In this document: positions 2,182 to 14,448 of the stretch, piece after piece
Layout: every line of letters begins with the position of its first letter
How positions within the stretch are numbered: position 1 is the first letter of the stretch
Source: a virus
Reading direction: 5' to 3' (one strand)
DNA length: 20,386 nt
Virus record (IMG/VR): IMGVR_UViG_3300031391_000023
Location: 1-20,386 of that record
Position numbers and translations under genes: made by a program
Notes under the pieces: generated by a model
What the model was told of the DNA's origin: nothing
The model's database searches: none
The model's input: only the letters and a program-made list of their open reading frames with translations

Positions 2182-5100
2182 TTAATTAGAAGTCGATTGC
2201 TGTTGTTTTAAGGCTCTGATTTGGTCTACTACTGACTTTGATATGACCCCTTTAACAGCCAAGTCTTTGATGTATGCGTTGGCTTCCTCTGGCTGCATGG
2301 TGTTAGCTTTCTTAAAGACGTACTCAGCCCGCTTGCCGTTCTCTACTCCTAGTTGTGAGATGGCTTGGTCAGTGGGTGTCCAGTCAGCTTTCTTTTTATC
2401 AGCCAGTACCTTCGCTTTAATCTTCTTCGCTAGTGGTAGGTTGGTCTTGGCTATCTCAGTTAGGCGAGCATTGGCTTGCTCTGGTGGTAGGTTGCCGAGT
2501 TCTTTAGAGACAGTTTCAACTTCTTCTGAGATGCTTTGTTTTTCGTCTTTCGCTTCCTTTAGGAAAGTGTCTAGTTCCGCATCTCCTGAAGTTCTGTTTG
2601 GTTTAGCAAACTGTCTAAATGCTGATGGAGTAAATTGACGTTGGATGGCGGTTAAGCCTTTTAAGTCACCCTCTTTGAAGTCTTTCCCGTCTGTTTTGTA
2701 CTCACTCCACATAGCTAGTTCTACTAAGTTGTCTGTCAACTTGGTTAAGAAACTAAGTAGTCGTGGCTCTCCAACAAACAGCCGTGGGTCAACGGCTCCG
2801 ATAATTGTCAACGCTTCTAGTTGAATACGAGCGTACCACTTTCCTGCAAAAGTATCTTCGTCGTTGTCTTGCATCGCTTGGCTTCCAACGTAAAAGATTA
2901 AGGCAGTAGCTTGCACCTCTCTAATAGTTTCTTGCATCTCCCTTGAGGTAATAATGCCTTTCAACTTGCCGCTTTTAATTCTAGTCGCCAGCGTAGTTAG
3001 GTTCTTTGCGGTAGTTCTAGCAATCGGAATAGCCCAGCCCTTGTACTTATTCACTGCCGCTCCAGCTGAAGTAGCTCCATAAATAGATTTAACATCTGCA
3101 CCCAAGTCACGCCACCGACCAGCTTCTAAACGCAACTCAGCCAGTCTCGCTGACGACAATTTACCAGCTCTTAGTTCGGCTTTAGTCATCCTAGACAAAA
3201 GAAATATCTTGTTCATTTCAACTGAAGACTGTGCAAAACCAATGAACATTGCATTCAATCCTTTTTCACCTAGTGATATGTTTGGTTCAGCTAATTCAGT
3301 CCACACGTTACGCCCGATAAACGGCTCAGCTTCCTTGATAATTTTAGCTGCGTTAGGGTCAATATACCCCTTGAGTCCAGCGTCCCAGACTCGACGTTTA
3401 GCACCCTTAGCAACACCTTTAGCTCCTAGAGCTACATAAGTAACTACTGACTCACCAACAACTGCTGCTGTCTGTGAAAGAACACTAAAACCTAAGTCTT
3501 TAATTGAGACAACAATATTGCCGAGCCGGAGTGTTACGTCTAGCTTACCGCCCTGTTCCAGCAATCCACCAAAGTTTTCCCTTCTACCCTTCTTGTTGTT
3601 TAGATATTTATTTATAAACGTCTTTAGGCTACGGTCTAGCTCTAGTCCCTTTTCAGTTAAACCTTTTGGGGTAAGGGCCTGTGTGTATACTTCTATTTCA
3701 GGAATAACCCTGTCGAGCATCTTCTTACGCTCCATCTGTTCTACGTAGTCAAGAAATACTTTAGTTGCATTATTACTCGCTTCCCCCTCTCCAGTTCGGC
3801 GCAAGGTATACTTAAAGAACTTAGACTTAGATAGTATCTGTCCAGTGTCTTGGTCAATAATCTTAGCTACTTGGGCAGCGTCTTTCTGCGCTTGGAATAC
3901 ACCACGTACTGCGTTTATCAGTCCGTCATCACTCCAACTCTCTAGAAATTGCTTCTTTGTGTGAGTAAAGTAAGCGTCTGCGTACCGACTCCCTCGTAGT
4001 TCCTCTATGGCTATAAGGTGGTCTAAGGCTCCACGGTAGTACTGCTCCATGTGTACGGCTAGGTCTAGCTCCTCTTTAGTGAGAGCTTTCATAGCCGCTT
4101 CTTTGGCTTCTGGTTCAGCTTCGAGGTAACGTACTATCTCCTTTTGTTTAGGTACAAGTGACTGTTTAGCCTTACTGAATATACTTGTATTACGTGATTT
4201 GTTAGCGGCTGCTGTTAGTCGGTTAGTCTCAGCTTGCACCTTTAAGAAGCTAGCTTTACCACGCATTACCTCGGTCTGGGTACGCTTTACTACTAGATTG
4301 TAGAAAGGATTAGCTTCTGCTAGGGCGGTATCGTAGCGCATGCTATCTAGTGTGGTAGATGTCATGTTCTCTAGGTCTTCAAGTTTAATATCTTTAAACT
4401 CAGGGTTTTTCTTTAACTCTTCCCATAAGTGAACCCGTACCTCACGCATAGTTTTGACACTACCTAGTTCTGTACGGCTGATAGTCTCTAGTGTTCGAGG
4501 AGACAGGAACTCATCACCCACACTAAAGCCCTCCAGTGACTTAGCGTACTGGCGTAACTGGGCTTCGTTCATCTGGCTGACTGGGGGTAAGTCCTGTGCC
4601 TTGCGGTAGTTTTCTACTTTATCAAAGTGTTTGTCTTCAATCAGAGCGTTTAGCTCCCACTTAGCTTGCTTGGTGTTCTGCATCTGCATGGCTCGGTTCT
4701 CCATTCCTCGAATGAATCCATTGAACTCACTCTCTCCCATCCGTTGCAAGTCCCGACCAAACGTCAACTTCTTTATCTCTCCGTCAGTTAGTTGAAATTG
4801 GTCTTGGAGGAAACGGACGTATGACTTACGTTCAGCCGATACGGTACTAGCCACCTTACTAGCTTTGTTAGCCAGCGCACGTTCAGCCTTAGCTGGCTTA
4901 AGTTCGTCTCGTAGCTCTTTAATTATAGTCGTACTCTCAGTGTATTTTAGATAAGCCTCTCTAGCCTCCTCAGACGTATCAAAACCAGCTTCGTCAGCCA
5001 GTTGGTCTCCCTTACGGGCAAATATAGACTTGCCTGAGCCTGTCACTTCTGGGAGTCCGTCTTTACCAGCGTACTTTGAAAGTGCTTTAGCTGGGTGGTT

Positions 5101-7605
5101 AGCTAGAGCCTCCTCTGCAATGTCTATACGTGTAGCTAGTTGCCCTATCTTCTCAGCGTTTAGGTCTTTGTTCTTTATAGCAGTACGAATGTCTTTTAGC
5201 TCGGAGTCTATTTTGATACGTGGGGCTGGTTTGGGTTTAGGAAACTCTTTGGGTACACCACCAGCGTACCCACCTTGTCGAAAGGCTGGGTTTTTTAGTT
5301 GGTCTAGGAGGGATGGTTTCTTAGGGGTGTTAGCTTGCTTCCAGATGTCTGTTAGTTGGGCTTTGGTTTGTACCATTTCTGCGTTTAAGATACGCACTTC
5401 ATTATCCTCTAAAGATTTAATAACATCGTAATTTTTAGACAAATCTGTTAGTTCGTTCGCGGACATATCATCTATTATGTCTCCGTCAGGCATTTCATAA
5501 ACTCTAGCATTTGGTTTTATATACATTTCGACTACTTCATCTGAATTTGCTATGTTTTTGGAAAATTGTTTAGCATAATTTATGTCGGGTGAGGTGCTTA
5601 GTCCTACAAAACCACCGCCACTTGACGGGAACGCTAATTTTTCTTCTGGAGAAAGTATTTTAACTTGTTTAATAAGTTCCTTAACTCCAGCACCTCCATG
5701 AAACACTGGCTCTCCTTGTGCTTTCACAAAAGCCTCAGCACTATCAAACCCCTTAGCTCCTTCTAGGATGGATGGTTTTTTAGCTTCTGTGCTAAGATTA
5801 GCAGATGATACGGATTGATTGTCTAGTCTGGGTGTCGGTACTGCTTCTGGCTGTGCTGTTGCTGTTGGCTGTTTTACTTTAGCTGCTTTATTAGCTTGCT
5901 TCCAAATTTCCTCTAGCTCTGCTTCTCTTTTCCTTATCAAAGGTAATTCCAAAGATTCTGCTTTCCTTATCTCTGAACTGATGTCACCCAAGTCTTTGGT
6001 TATTTGCGCACTCAGCCTTACAATATCCTGAGCAGGCTTTCCTTCTTCGGCAATAACCTTCACTCCCTTGAATACATTTTCAGGATCAGAACCAAGGATT
6101 ACTTGTTTGACAAAGGGTAAATTATTTTTCTTAGCAAAGTAATTATATATAGATTGTATATTTGTTTCTATAGAATCACCCATCACACCACTCTTTAATT
6201 TGTCGTAGGATAAGACATCAGTAACATCTCCAACCTCTTTTCCTCTTTTAATACCTAAATCTGCAAGAAGTTCAACTGGGTCAAAATCTAATTTTCCACC
6301 TGAAATTGCTTTTGTGTTACCAACACGATCAAACAAAGAGTCTAATTGTTTATCTACTCCAAACTCTCGGTTAATAGTTTTTGTTACAAACTCTTCCTCC
6401 GTCAGTCCTTTAGCGACGGCTTCTGAGGCAGGTGTGGTTTGTACTGGCTTTTTAATATCAGATACTCCACCGCGCGCACGTGAAGCTTCAGCTTGTTTGG
6501 CTGGGCGTTGTGCGTCTTGTGTGATAGCTAGACTCTCGTCCATGTGTTGCCGTAGGGTATTGGCGAGCGTCTTGTCTCCACCTGTAGTGGCTTCTTTTGC
6601 AATGAAACCTTTTGCGACCATAGCGTCTCCTAGCTCTTGAGCGAGTCCTTTTATTTCTATCTTCTCCGCTGAGGTGGCTCTACTGGTTTTGTTCACTATA
6701 TCAGAGAATCTCTTTACTACCTCGGTCATCTCAGGGTTGTATGTCGCTGGCTTCAGTAGCGTTTTGAGACCCATCTTGACCGGCTTGGTAGTTCCCAAGA
6801 ATACTGGAGCATCGAGTCCAGCAAACAGCTTCTCGGTAAAGTTAGTTAAGCGCAGGGCTGATTTTTCCTCCGGTGTGAGGTCTTCAGTGGGTACGTTGAA
6901 CCTAGAAAGAATTGGAGCGTTGGGGTTTTGATTAGCTAGGTTTCTAATCGCTTTGTCAATCGCTAACTCTGGGTCTGTCCCCGCTTCAATAAGTTTGTCT
7001 CGGTATTCAAATATACGCCTGTTAGCGTCTTCTTGAGTCGGGTTGAGCAATGAGTTAAATCCTTCAGTTAAAAGCCCTGGCACGCCCTTTTCACGCGCTA
7101 CAGACCCCATAGACTCTAATACACCAGTGAAACCCTTCTGTTGGTTTGGCTGCTCTGCTCTACCTGTACCTACAAGAAATGGCGCAAGCCCTCCCAGTTT
7201 TTCTCGGAGCTTTGCTTGACGGTCTTCATTACGGCTTTGTTGCTGTGACACCATCCACTCCCGCCCTTGCCCTAGTTTCTTAGCATCATTAAAGCTTGTG
7301 TTGAGTAAGGGGTTTACTCTTGGTGCAGTAATAGAACCACCTTTAGCGATAATATCGGCTTGAGTTGGTTTGTATGCTGGTATCCTTGTTTGATTGGGAG
7401 CTGGCGTTTGGTTTGGAGTTGGTGTAAATGGTACGGGCTGTGTTTGTGCTTGTTGGGTAGTATTCGCTGTCTGGGGTAGAACAGGCTGCGGTAGAGTAGG
7501 TGCTTTAGGCATACCAAACTTCACCGGCTGGGGTGGCAGGTTTCTTTTTCCACCGTCTAAGATGGCTTTGATACTTGGGGTGAAGATTCTATTCCAGTCT
7601 TTCAT
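2182..7605 (-). CDS. Giant polyvalent ejection-type virion protein with ADP-ribosyltransferase-like domain
   Basis: This 1807-residue protein is the largest in the window. Residues about 20-75 are proline-, glutamine- and threonine-rich and look disordered. Residues about 630-745 resemble an ADP-ribosyltransferase fold: PVFHGG with H636, GFVGLSTSP with S670-S672, and DNEVRIL with E736. LxxIWKQAN occurs on both sides of this domain (564-572 and 751-759), each followed by KKPS(I/L)L. The rest is mostly charged helix, with hydrophobic stretches near 1370-1392 and 1560-1575. Long helical proteins placed between tail genes and fibre in short-tailed phages are usually ejected with the DNA. Such proteins with embedded enzymes are known as polyvalent proteins. 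The ejection role and enzyme activity are inferences from position and motifs. The ATG lies 10 bases after the preceding stop, with no Shine-Dalgarno sequence. Confidence 0.85.
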   Translation of the reverse strand: MKDWNRIFTPSIKAILDGGKRNLPPQPVKFGMPKAPTLPQPVLPQTANTTQQAQTQPVPFTPTPNQTPAPNQTRIPAYKPTQADIIAKGGSITAPRVNPLLNTSFNDAKKLGQGREWMVSQQQSRNEDRQAKLREKLGGLAPFLVGTGRAEQPNQQKGFTGVLESMGSVAREKGVPGLLTEGFNSLLNPTQEDANRRIFEYRDKLIEAGTDPELAIDKAIRNLANQNPNAPILSRFNVPTEDLTPEEKSALRLTNFTEKLFAGLDAPVFLGTTKPVKMGLKTLLKPATYNPEMTEVVKRFSDIVNKTSRATSAEKIEIKGLAQELGDAMVAKGFIAKEATTGGDKTLANTLRQHMDESLAITQDAQRPAKQAEASRARGGVSDIKKPVQTTPASEAVAKGLTEEEFVTKTINREFGVDKQLDSLFDRVGNTKAISGGKLDFDPVELLADLGIKRGKEVGDVTDVLSYDKLKSGVMGDSIETNIQSIYNYFAKKNNLPFVKQVILGSDPENVFKGVKVIAEEGKPAQDIVRLSAQITKDLGDISSEIRKAESLELPLIRKREAELEEIWKQANKAAKVKQPTATAQPEAVPTPRLDNQSVSSANLSTEAKKPSILEGAKGFDSAEAFVKAQGEPVFHGGAGVKELIKQVKILSPEEKLAFPSSGGGFVGLSTSPDINYAKQFSKNIANSDEVVEMYIKPNARVYEMPDGDIIDDMSANELTDLSKNYDVIKSLEDNEVRILNAEMVQTKAQLTDIWKQANTPKKPSLLDQLKNPAFRQGGYAGGVPKEFPKPKPAPRIKIDSELKDIRTAIKNKDLNAEKIGQLATRIDIAEEALANHPAKALSKYAGKDGLPEVTGSGKSIFARKGDQLADEAGFDTSEEAREAYLKYTESTTIIKELRDELKPAKAERALANKASKVASTVSAERKSYVRFLQDQFQLTDGEIKKLTFGRDLQRMGESEFNGFIRGMENRAMQMQNTKQAKWELNALIEDKHFDKVENYRKAQDLPPVSQMNEAQLRQYAKSLEGFSVGDEFLSPRTLETISRTELGSVKTMREVRVHLWEELKKNPEFKDIKLEDLENMTSTTLDSMRYDTALAEANPFYNLVVKRTQTEVMRGKASFLKVQAETNRLTAAANKSRNTSIFSKAKQSLVPKQKEIVRYLEAEPEAKEAAMKALTKEELDLAVHMEQYYRGALDHLIAIEELRGSRYADAYFTHTKKQFLESWSDDGLINAVRGVFQAQKDAAQVAKIIDQDTGQILSKSKFFKYTLRRTGEGEASNNATKVFLDYVEQMERKKMLDRVIPEIEVYTQALTPKGLTEKGLELDRSLKTFINKYLNNKKGRRENFGGLLEQGGKLDVTLRLGNIVVSIKDLGFSVLSQTAAVVGESVVTYVALGAKGVAKGAKRRVWDAGLKGYIDPNAAKIIKEAEPFIGRNVWTELAEPNISLGEKGLNAMFIGFAQSSVEMNKIFLLSRMTKAELRAGKLSSARLAELRLEAGRWRDLGADVKSIYGATSAGAAVNKYKGWAIPIARTTAKNLTTLATRIKSGKLKGIITSREMQETIREVQATALIFYVGSQAMQDNDEDTFAGKWYARIQLEALTIIGAVDPRLFVGEPRLLSFLTKLTDNLVELAMWSEYKTDGKDFKEGDLKGLTAIQRQFTPSAFRQFAKPNRTSGDAELDTFLKEAKDEKQSISEEVETVSKELGNLPPEQANARLTEIAKTNLPLAKKIKAKVLADKKKADWTPTDQAISQLGVENGKRAEYVFKKANTMQPEEANAYIKDLAVKGVISKSVVDQIRALKQQQSTSN
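5329..5355 (-). repeat. Linker repeat copy 2 (L-T-D-IWKQAN)
   Basis: The segment encodes LTDIWKQAN, residues 751-759, directly after the ADP-ribosyltransferase-like domain. Fourteen bases (5330-5343) are identical to 5891-5904. KKPSLL follows at 5303-5324 and matches KKPSIL at 5762-5783 at 20 of 22 bases. Confidence 0.8.
5356..5760 (-). other. ADP-ribosyltransferase-like domain within the 1807-aa protein
   Basis: The segment encodes residues about 616-750. It begins with FDSAEAFVKAQGEPVFHGG, continues with GGGFVGLSTSPDINYAKQFSK, then VVEMYIKPNARVYEMP, and closes with DNEVRILNAEMVQTKAQL. ADP-ribosyltransferases found in phage polyvalent proteins share this order: a strand with H or R, a strand with STS or a tyrosine, an Ala-rich helix, a strand with a bulky residue pattern, and a final strand with E or Q. 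H636, S670/S672 and E736 are candidate NAD-site residues. The second acidic residue of a classical ExE is absent (E736-V-R), so the target may differ or activity may be lost. No fold search was possible. Confidence 0.55.
5891..5916 (-). repeat. Linker repeat copy 1 (L-E-E-IWKQAN)
   Basis: The segment encodes LEEIWKQAN, residues 564-572, upstream of the ADP-ribosyltransferase-like domain. About 35 residues of T/P/A-rich linker separate it from KKPSIL (5762-5783), whereas in copy 2 the two motifs are nearly adjacent. It may be the end of a preceding, degraded domain. Confidence 0.8.
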
Positions 7606-10907: not shown

Positions 10908-12692
10908 TTAATTCATGCTAATAACACTACTGGATTTAGTCAGCTTGCGTGGGCTTTTGTGACCAGATAGAGCGAATTGTGAGATGGTAAAGGTCTCACT
11001 TAATTTATCGTTACTCAGCTCGATACTGATTGACTGAGCCTTAGAGAGGAAAGATACTCTACGTTTAGTAAAGGGTGAGTTTGCCACCACTCGACCAAAG
11101 GAGTCTGCGATAAGCATGTCACCGATTGGTACTTCGGGGAGAGCGTTCTCTTCATTCTCTACTGGGTTGCCAACAAAGAAGATTTTAGCTTTAGTGTTAC
11201 GTATGTCGTTTGCGTCTGAGTAAACAGTGACTGTCACGCGAGCCAGTAGGTCTTTGAACATTAGGTCTAGGTAGCGGTAGACGTTGAAACGTGAGAAGTC
11301 ATCGTCCTCTACCCGCTCAAAGCGCACTGATGAAGGGATAGCTACCCCATTATCGTTTAGTGATTCTGTCCACTTGAGTACACCAAAGGGTGCTGATGAC
11401 TTGGCACTGTATATTACCCCGTCAATCTCCATGTAGTCTGAGCTTTTGGCTTTGATACGGTTGGTATTCTTAGTCCATGCGTTGCCGTGAAGTAGGTGAC
11501 AGACAAAAGTCACATCGTTTGTGTCTTCAACTAGGGGAATAGCCATATAGAACCGTCTGTTGTAGTAGAAAGTAACTATCTGTGAGTAGTCTGCTACTTT
11601 AATATAAGCTAGTGTCTCCTTAATATCCTCTGAAATGACTGATGTATTGACTCCAAGTACCCCTATTTGCTGGTCTTTGTACCCAATAGAGCGCACTTCT
11701 AGCCCTGTGAAGAACCAGATGTCGTTCTCTACCCATGAGATAGCGTCTTTCCCACACGCTCCGTACTGTCCGTTTTGAATCTCTAGCTTCGGTACGAACA
11801 AATCTACAATTTGGTCGTAAATAAAGGTCAGTTTCCAGATGCTCTCTTGTTTGAATATCAATAAAGAGCCAAAGTAGTTAACTGTGCCGGTGATTTTGTC
11901 TGTGCCGGTAGGTTTGATTATGTCTGTACCAGTAAAAGTAGTGGGGACTCCTACGTTTGAGTAATAGGTAGTTAGTGGCTCGGCTGTTACACCTGATACA
12001 AATAGTCTGTCCTCAAATATCTCTAAGATGTTACCCTTTGGCGCGCTTGCGTACTCAGTAAAGGTAGTACCGTCAAACTTAGTATACGGCTCGTTCGCGT
12101 TACTGAGGTATAAATCATCGTCATACACCAAGTAAGCGAACTCTGCGTCCTCTGTGTACGCTGCTGTGACAGTGTGTACGCCTGATTGTGTACCGGAAGT
12201 ATCAACTGCGCTTCCTCCTACTGTCTCGGAGAACTGAAAAGCGTTGGCGGTGAGTCCAGCAGCGATAACGAAGTAGGTGGTGCCAGCGGTGATACCTGTC
12301 GGTAGTGCGCCGGTAGTGCTGAATACGATAGGTGTAGTAGATACAAAGCTATGAGCTGTCTGAGTTACTACGGCCGGGGTGGCGATAGTGATAGTAGACG
12401 TTCCCCCACGCAAGTTCTCCCATAGGTTAGTAGTGGTGTTGTATCGCTGTAGGTGTTTACCTGTCGCTCCCAGGATATAGTTTGTGCCGTCCTTTTTCTT
12501 GTAGTTAAATAGCGAGTGAAACAATGATGCACTTTCAGCTCCAAACAACTCACAACCAGTGTCTTTAGTTAAATACCCTTCCTCAATGAAGTTCATGTTA
12601 ATCGGGACAGTCCGTCCTCGGTTGTCATCTACGTCAACAGCCTTTGCCAGCTCGTCTTTGATGATGGTGAATGGTTGCTTTTTGATTGGCAT
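10908..12692 (-). CDS. Tail hub / packaged-DNA stabilisation-type protein
   Basis: The protein has 594 residues, mostly beta strands. Phrases such as NYILGATGKHLQRYN, FAYLVYDDDLYLSNANEPYTKFDGTTF, FEDRLFVSGV and SLLIFKQESIWKL recur in propeller-like tail hub proteins of short-tailed phages. Its place directly after a ~200-aa adaptor matches P22 gene 10, whose product plugs the neck after packaging. Residues about 98-178 (TQTAHSFVSTTPIVFSTTGALPTG... to ...TSGTQSGVHTV) form a separate beta domain that seems inserted between propeller strands. The start codon lies one base past the stop of the adaptor gene, so translation is probably coupled. The family call rests on layout and strand motifs, not on a profile search. 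Confidence 0.75.
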   Translation of the reverse strand: MPIKKQPFTIIKDELAKAVDVDDNRGRTVPINMNFIEEGYLTKDTGCELFGAESASLFHSLFNYKKKDGTNYILGATGKHLQRYNTTTNLWENLRGGTSTITIATPAVVTQTAHSFVSTTPIVFSTTGALPTGITAGTTYFVIAAGLTANAFQFSETVGGSAVDTSGTQSGVHTVTAAYTEDAEFAYLVYDDDLYLSNANEPYTKFDGTTFTEYASAPKGNILEIFEDRLFVSGVTAEPLTTYYSNVGVPTTFTGTDIIKPTGTDKITGTVNYFGSLLIFKQESIWKLTFIYDQIVDLFVPKLEIQNGQYGACGKDAISWVENDIWFFTGLEVRSIGYKDQQIGVLGVNTSVISEDIKETLAYIKVADYSQIVTFYYNRRFYMAIPLVEDTNDVTFVCHLLHGNAWTKNTNRIKAKSSDYMEIDGVIYSAKSSAPFGVLKWTESLNDNGVAIPSSVRFERVEDDDFSRFNVYRYLDLMFKDLLARVTVTVYSDANDIRNTKAKIFFVGNPVENEENALPEVPIGDMLIADSFGRVVANSPFTKRRVSFLSKAQSISIELSNDKLSETFTISQFALSGHKSPRKLTKSSSVISMN

Positions 12693-13347: not shown

Positions 13348-14448
13348 TTATGAGATTGTTGCTCGGAGAACAGCTCCTCGTCCACGGTTGCCTTCGAATA
13401 CTTTGTATCCTCGGACAAGTAGTCCTTTACAGGTAGATACGAATGAGTTCGGGTCAGTCTCACTTGAGATGATAGAAACCTTCATAATCTGTGCTGCAAA
13501 AGCCATGAATTCCTTCGTACCAGCTAGGAAGAAGTAACCAGTTGTGTTGTTACCTGCTACTAGCTCTGAGAAGTAGATGTCAAAGTTTGCGAATCGGCCT
13601 ACAAACCCTTCCTTTACTACCTCTTCGTACGCTACGTCTACTGCTGGGATAAACTCTGGTGCTTGTCGCATGATACCTTCCATTGCTGAGTTAACAACTA
13701 GGAAACGTCGTTCCTTACGTGGTGTAAGTGATGCGTTTAGTACTGTACCGAGTTGTACCATGTACTGGTATACGTTGCTCTTAGTCAAAGCAACTGCTGT
13801 AGCTCCTGCGATTGTGTAAGAAGTACCACTTGATACTGCTCCACCTGTGTACTCACTTTCTGCTCCAACGTCTTTAATTGTGATTGAAGTTGCTGATGCG
13901 TACGCTGTAACGATTTGGTAAGTTGCTCCAGCGTCTGCTGTGAAGTAACCTCCTACCATTGCTGCGGTGAAAGTAGTTCCTGTACCTGTTACTGCTCCGG
14001 TAGTTGCTGCTACTGCTACTGATCCAGTTGAGTAATTTGTTCCAACTACGTTTGCTCCTGATGCGTTACGTCGTCCGTACTCTAGAAGTTCAGTGTCGAT
14101 AAGTTCTGACATGTCCATTCGTGCGTTTGATGCGTATTCTGACATTGTGTCTACATCGTTTTGTAGCTTGTCAATGTCGTCTACAACAAACTTGAAGTAG
14201 TCAGCTTGGTCGATAACTAGGTCTTCTGAGGTTGGGTTTAGGTCTTGTGCAACCAATGTCATTCCCTTTGTGTATGAAGAAAGACTGATTTTAGCTGCTG
14301 TACGAACTCGAACTCGGTCTCCCATGTTCTTGATTTCACCTTCGTACTTTGTGTTGGTGATGTTCTGGTAGATTGTCTCGTTGTAGAGAGTTTCTACTAG
14401 TTTAAGGCTAAATACTATTGGAGTATTAGCTGCTAATGATTGTGACAT
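13348..14448 (-). CDS. Major capsid protein with beta-domain insertion
   Basis: The 366-residue protein has the features of P22-type/HK97-fold coat proteins. These include an N-terminal arm (TPIVFSLKLVETLYNETIYQNI), RVRVRTAAKISLSSYTKG, the long helix DYFKFVVDDIDKLQND to TELLEYGRR (83-127), and a C-terminal ERRFLVVNSAMEGIM, GRFANFDIYFSE, FFLAGTKEFMAFA, KGLLVRGYKVFEG. The gene follows the scaffold directly, as expected. Residues about 140-218 (SVAVAATTGAVTGTGTTFTA to YTIAGATA) are small, Ala/Gly/Thr-rich beta sequence. They look like an inserted domain, which would probably project from the capsid surface. Many such subunits form the icosahedral shell. A short palindrome lies just before the ATG. 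Confidence 0.9.
   Translation of the reverse strand: MSQSLAANTPIVFSLKLVETLYNETIYQNITNTKYEGEIKNMGDRVRVRTAAKISLSSYTKGMTLVAQDLNPTSEDLVIDQADYFKFVVDDIDKLQNDVDTMSEYASNARMDMSELIDTELLEYGRRNASGANVVGTNYSTGSVAVAATTGAVTGTGTTFTAAMVGGYFTADAGATYQIVTAYASATSITIKDVGAESEYTGGAVSSGTSYTIAGATAVALTKSNVYQYMVQLGTVLNASLTPRKERRFLVVNSAMEGIMRQAPEFIPAVDVAYEEVVKEGFVGRFANFDIYFSELVAGNNTTGYFFLAGTKEFMAFAAQIMKVSIISSETDPNSFVSTCKGLLVRGYKVFEGNRGRGAVLRATIS
13795..14031 (-). other. Inserted beta-sandwich-like domain of the coat protein
   Basis: Residues 140-218 of the coat protein carry alternating hydrophobic beta pattern with GTGTTFTAAMVGGYFTADAG and SATSITIKD. This pattern is common in small surface or fibre domains of phages. 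The helical coat core resumes on both sides. The boundaries are estimated from the pattern. Confidence 0.55.

Follow-up and report, generated by a model that had tools for sequence, protein, structure and literature searches.

The window analysed here (G000, a virus record of 20,386 bp from an uncultivated tailed phage) encodes a protein of 1807 aa, and the locus raises the question of how an enzyme-like segment came to lie inside so large a protein and what sets the limits of that segment. The minus-strand gene order begins with a small HAD-like protein, a small-terminase candidate, TerL, a portal candidate, a scaffold candidate and the capsid protein ('candidate' marks genes named from position only), and continues with tail proteins, a collar-domain protein, a 604-aa protein, the 1807-aa giant (2182-7605) and a fibre. 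The giant has an open frame, lies 3' of the TerL, portal, scaffold, capsid, tail and collar genes and has counterparts of giant size at the same place in relatives; its frame is also open in a second contig (L005). It has no match in Pfam, PHROG or NCBIfam and no relative among annotated phages, and single-sequence searches of annotated phages, plasmids and the PDB with the giant or with its ADP-ribosyltransferase (ART) segment returned nothing useful.

We note some further features of the neighbouring genes. The capsid protein (13348-14448) has an internal segment (aa 139-216) that matches tail-fibre PHROGs and is possibly a decoration domain. The tail protein encoded at 10908-12692 and its relatives are ~594 aa long in some phages and ~515 aa in others, with a variably present insert near aa 70-180 that matches fibre PHROGs, and in the fibre protein (1-2162) repeats of the SNTTGSNNTANGLNALY type follow one another in a long run.

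The original prediction saw in the giant an ART-like segment bracketed by a duplicated linker. The motifs and repeats are indeed in place, with IWKQAN at aa 567-572 and 754-759, KKPSIL at 609-614, KKPSLL at 762-767, and FHGG, GLSTS and NEVRIL between the linkers; the 14-nt linker identity is exact (TGGAAGCAAGCTAA) and is the sole repeated 14-mer in the giant gene. The downstream IWKQAN lies inside the trailer described below; the upstream linker copy is near chance. A 6-aa repeat arises in 11% of shuffles of the giant protein, the DNA identity given the amino acids has P = 0.41 for IWKQAN and P = 0.013 for KKPS-L (joint 0.006), and the copies are not collinear, with a motif spacing of 36 residues upstream vs 2 downstream. 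The upstream copy has neither the TK-QLTD part nor the conserved DNA that goes with it, and is therefore a decayed trailer at most. It is speculative that aa 395-575 are an older module, and no relatives of this region as another module were found. The brackets with real support are a header that the original prediction missed and the downstream trailer.

2182-7605, minus strand: gene of the giant late protein (P0001), 1807 aa
5716-5754, minus strand: header bracket, aa 618-630, KGFDSAEAFVKAQ; predicted helix, 38 bp 89% identical to L199
5329-5367, minus strand: trailer bracket, aa 747-759, TKAQLTDIWKQAN; DNA similarity to L152 and L131, and the point at which homology with the L042 and L060 giants begins
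5305-5322, minus strand: KKPSLL, downstream half of the originally predicted linker
5764-5781, minus strand: KKPSIL, its upstream copy (codon-level identity P = 0.013)
5890-5907, minus strand: upstream IWKQAN, possibly the decayed trailer of an older module; near chance, with no trailer-core DNA
5878-6432, minus strand: possible older module, ~aa 395-575 (GLTEEEFVTK ... EIWKQANKA), from by-eye likeness to the L048 header GLTEEQFMKGQ

We propose, with a probability of about 0.8, that giant late phage proteins house an in-frame cassette system and that the segment occupies one of its slots. A slot would be bounded by a header (KYKSAEEFVKAQ) and a trailer (TKSQLTDIWNKA), both predicted short helices, with one enzyme module between them, in the window a predicted ART fold of the polyvalent-protein kind. 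Bracket DNA of ~24-30 bp, and up to ~70 bp, conserved across diverged phages would supply homology for recombination, and whole modules could be exchanged, gained in tandem or lost with the frame intact. The giant protein probably travels in the virion and is ejected from it, and an ejected ART module, if catalytic, would modify a host macromolecule early in infection.

The module and its active site

5368-5715, minus strand: predicted ADP-ribosyltransferase-fold module, aa 631-746 (AF2 model, ART/PARP fold neighbours, HMM of relatives)
5698-5700, minus strand: His636, putative NAD-binding His (motif 1, VFHGG; alignment A4)
5590-5604, minus strand: GLSTS, motif 2; the preceding GGFVG has Phe in place of the usual Tyr, or lacks it (alignment A4)
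5398-5400, minus strand: Glu736, putative catalytic acidic residue (motif 3, NEVRIL; alignment A4; compare SEIRIL in L066 and GEIRVI in L105)

An AF2 model of the window module, built with 31 aligned modules, has a pLDDT of 85.5 and a pTM of 0.79, and the header and trailer helices are among its most confident parts. Its PDB neighbours are mostly ARTs, and the leading ones all belong to the ART superfamily: SAIP, RES toxins, tankyrases and ParT (best E 0.016, probability 0.94). The viral fold neighbours reach E 6e-4, with PARP and ART-PolyVal entries among them. An HMM of relatives, built without the window sequence and without brackets, scores the window module at 24.3 bits vs 9.3 for the best of 500 shuffles, with a mild bias in that the alignment columns were set with the window present. 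ART-PolyVal (PF18760) is matched by 18 of the 31 aligned modules at E <= 0.01; the window module has no Pfam match, so the PF18760 gathering cut-off is not reached. The ART-like fold originally predicted thus has the support of the structural model, and of fold neighbours that are consistent even with weak E-values.

The original prediction also took the missing second acid of an ExE motif as a sign of unusual activity. We reject this argument, because the ARTs of polyvalent proteins use an H-Y-D and not an R-S-ExE layout (PMC5512222), and the absent ExE is therefore no anomaly. The unusual point in the aligned sequences is instead motif 2: His636 and Glu736 are kept, and the Tyr is Phe or absent in the window copy. 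This substitution and the weak family score would fit an inactive copy retained as a structural spacer, a reading that is compatible with a cassette slot; with both His636 and Glu736 retained, and the frame open in L005 too, we consider it unlikely.

The giant reads on for more than 1000 codons past the ART module, which is thus internal. One effector module is recognised in the window protein and two in the related L042 giant. LPD38, which is present in the syntenic giants L056 and L020, was not found in the window protein, whose C-terminal region does not match it. The late-operon position and the literature make injection with the DNA and modification of a host target plausible.

Other giants have features of their own. 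Those of L008, L020, L023, L048 and L049 have in common a C-terminal HNH-like motif, LEHIVPxxxGGxNxxxNL, on which Pfam is silent where scanned, and the related giant at L049:10597-14607 has by eye a J-domain-like HPDK segment near aa 205-235. The giant at the same place in L045 (10516-14370) has a lysozyme-like end (SLT_3, below cut-off), which is consistent with an ejected protein.

Bracketed modules in other viruses and their DNA

More than 100 uncultivated-virus contigs have giant ORFs with the same header and trailer frame. A search of IMG/VR with a degenerate DNA pattern for the trailer QLT[DE]IW[NK][KQ]A gave 81 matching stretches, 80 of them in long ORFs and in frame, and most trailer-carrying ORFs have KYKSAEEFV upstream of the trailer. 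A scan with the header alone gave 96 distinct headers, all 96 in frame, and in 43 of these a trailer lies at most 330 aa away, though the trailer was not part of the query; in the newly found ORFs the density of trailers just downstream of the header is 29-fold that elsewhere. A genome-wide trailer scan gave 10 matches, two of which (L143, L146) we discarded as chance matches in unrelated proteins. Over 40 bp the window trailer DNA shares 95% identity with L152, and over 30 bp it shares 100% with L131; in cultured phage records there is no match to bracket DNA above noise.

The sequences between the brackets form ~31 clusters. Pfam assigns an ART-PolyVal (L119, 2e-13), a GNAT (L071, 7e-7) and an NTP_transf_2 domain of Pol-beta nucleotidyltransferases (L099, 1e-11), a ParB/Srx module is recognised by profile and fold (L043 homologue, the PDB neighbours listed being ParB/Srx and kin), and the frame also encloses several modules without any family.

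Two further kinds of bracketed module were seen. One recurs in 8 non-redundant members with the motifs [TV]IYR[AGS]...GD[WF]V[TS] (for example L060:13024-13476, L111:6812-7276 and L073:12925-13344), and Pfam matches neither of the two members scanned (L132, L073). The other, in L069, L093, L122 and L138, resembles a phosphoribosyltransferase by eye (VDTVLGTGTT) and has no Pfam match.

Synonymous sites were compared between ORFs unlinked by similarity at E 1e-20, with the expectation taken from each ORF's own codon usage. Codon identity is 0.711 vs 0.494 expected in the header (null sd 0.014) and 0.747 vs 0.390 in the trailer (null sd 0.017); the corresponding values are 0.474 vs 0.429 (sd 0.026) for the ART motif YHG[TS] and 0.541 vs 0.455 (sd 0.037) for GYD[GA]. 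At E 1e-4 most bracket ORFs join one similarity component, and they are therefore to be described as diverged, not 'unrelated'. The conservation is local: across 42 groups every trailer Ser that is present is encoded by TCC (1.00 vs 0.21), and the following NKA has no excess. Synonymous conservation of the brackets and not of the ART motifs suggests that the brackets act as short DNA homology tags, and the simplest reading would be that recombination both uses these tags as homology and homogenises them. RNA- or protein-level constraint may also act on them.

The brackets might instead be protein elements only, such as docking helices or processing sites at module borders, with incidental DNA similarity and modules that move by illegitimate recombination and selection. 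The confident helix predictions for header and trailer fit this, as does the conservation of header L-6 and A-2 and trailer NKA without codon conservation. Core synonymous sites far above expectation in both brackets (0.71 vs 0.49 and 0.75 vs 0.39) and a Ser codon that is TCC in every group argue against it, as do the ART motifs of the same genes, which are not likewise conserved, and we see it as a minority reading.

That the brackets are terminal inverted repeats, or form a structured recombination site in a mobile element moved by its own recombinase, seems less probable still. The consensus header and the reverse-complemented trailer have AGA-GT-CGG-GAGTT in common, their duplex energy is below that of codon-drawn controls, and the DNA conservation is local. 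When the third-base GC class is kept, however, the signal weakens to a small pairing excess (-12.2 vs -11.5, sd 0.34) with an ordinary consensus score, and for this reason we claim neither an inverted repeat nor an RNA hairpin; no gene for a recombinase is known, and out-of-frame tag copies are not seen among the loci collected.

Replacement of modules between related phages

Relatives of the giant were found through the adjacent tail and 604-aa proteins (35 loci, then 21), and several have a giant at the same place. The L042 giant is 54% identical to the window giant over aa 748 to 1797, starting at the trailer TKAQLTDIWKQAN, and has two ART-like modules upstream of the homologous part, the second of which matches ART-PolyVal below the curated cut-off. 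L043 has a ParB-like DGMHRY module flanked by 'KYKTAEEFWKAE' and 'SKSQLTDIWNKAN', and L044, 74-75% identical to L043 in stretches on either side, has no module and no trailer. L060, whose YRAG...GDW module is unclassified, joins up with both L043 and the window giant at the trailer. Homology breakpoints thus fall at the trailer in the P0001/L042, P0001/L060 and L043/L060 comparisons. The alignment of homologous giants shows the module absent (L044), replaced (L043, L060) or doubled (L042), so the segment and both linkers are not constant companions of the protein.

Closer relatives give more recent events. L099 and L123 have flanks 100% and 97% identical and carry, in frame, a nucleotidyltransferase and an ART respectively; identity restarts 11 bp ahead of the trailer Gln codon, and L123 has ~360 bp extra just 5' of the header relative to L099. 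L108 (also L086) and L113 agree at 99.6% as far as the header core and at 91-98% past the trailer, with identity restarting at the same -11 position, and have ParB-like and ART-like modules respectively. L079 has a module missing in L097, L076 and L098, an in-frame gain of 414 bp bordered by a direct duplication of 67 bp whose start coincides exactly with the trailer Gln codon. A gain with duplication of the L079 type is the event that had been imagined for the window. The proposal of gain or swap by recombination at a linker thus holds in kind, for the homologues and for the L099/L123, L108/L113 and L097/L079 pairs, and its weak part is the duplicated linker cited for it.

All of the genomes are metagenome assemblies, in which misjoining at shared tags, the chief technical concern, could mimic exchange; against this are the short identical stretches at the joints, the in-frame joints, and the fact that L097, L076 and L098, and likewise L108 and L086, repeat each other. 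Vertical inheritance of an ancestral ART module and linkers, with loss and divergence making the differences, draws on the L109 alignment with P0001, which runs across the ART module, but is scarcely credible given non-homologous folds in the same slot of homologues (ParB/Srx in L043, another module in L060) and near-identical phages that differ in the slot only (L099/L123, L108/L113).

We infer that recombination uses the brackets as homology, and these phages appear, as far as genome comparison can tell, to swap probable host-takeover enzymes like cartridges. A broader proposal, which we offer tentatively and at rather less than even odds, is that a widespread group of uncultivated phages practises intragenic cassette exchange, in which paired DNA tags of ~24-30 bp, translated in a single frame into two short helices, would allow any effector enzyme to be inserted, stacked or replaced in a giant late protein, perhaps with a dedicated recombination enzyme.

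Relation to known systems

Polymorphic toxins of the CdiA/Rhs type have a constant carrier and exchangeable effector domains that recombine at a conserved junction; they have a single junction, a C-terminal toxin and an immunity gene. The giants are alike in their constant carrier and exchangeable effectors and differ in that the modules are internal, framed on both sides and can be tandem; the window module is not a C-terminal toxin, and no adjacent immunity gene is seen.

Phage T4 Alt, an injected phage ART that modifies host proteins (PMC5512222), offers a second comparison. The window module would resemble it as a phage ART that acts on the host. Alt is of the R-S-E type and a separate enzyme, whereas the window module appears to belong to the H-Y-D/E kind and is part of a giant protein.

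The closest likeness is to the polyvalent proteins of phages and conjugative elements, which carry ART-PolyVal (PF18760), ddrB-ParB, GNAT and Pol-beta NTase domains (Iyer et al. 2017, PMC5512222); ARTs are the modifying domain met most often there, with copy numbers from one to many. Both the repertoire of enzymes and the modular polyvalent-protein idea are thus already known. That paper raises possible recombinational variability for one kinase locus only, and linkers are unmentioned in a text search of it. A literature search, outside which lay most subscription journals and preprints, found no description of paired brackets or of bracket DNA conservation, and one with the motif peptides found no paper. 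The general idea that polyvalent proteins vary by recombination here becomes a concrete, testable rule, that two tags mark an exchangeable effector between them. The rule gives a direct listing of many probable host-takeover enzymes, unnamed families such as the YRG/YRA...GDW modules included, and opens to study how the frame is kept while phages shuffle effectors. The giants and the polyvalent proteins of PMC5512222 are alike as giant multi-domain late phage proteins with the same enzyme repertoire; they differ in that here a shared header and trailer with conserved DNA frame the modules, and exchanges are seen directly.
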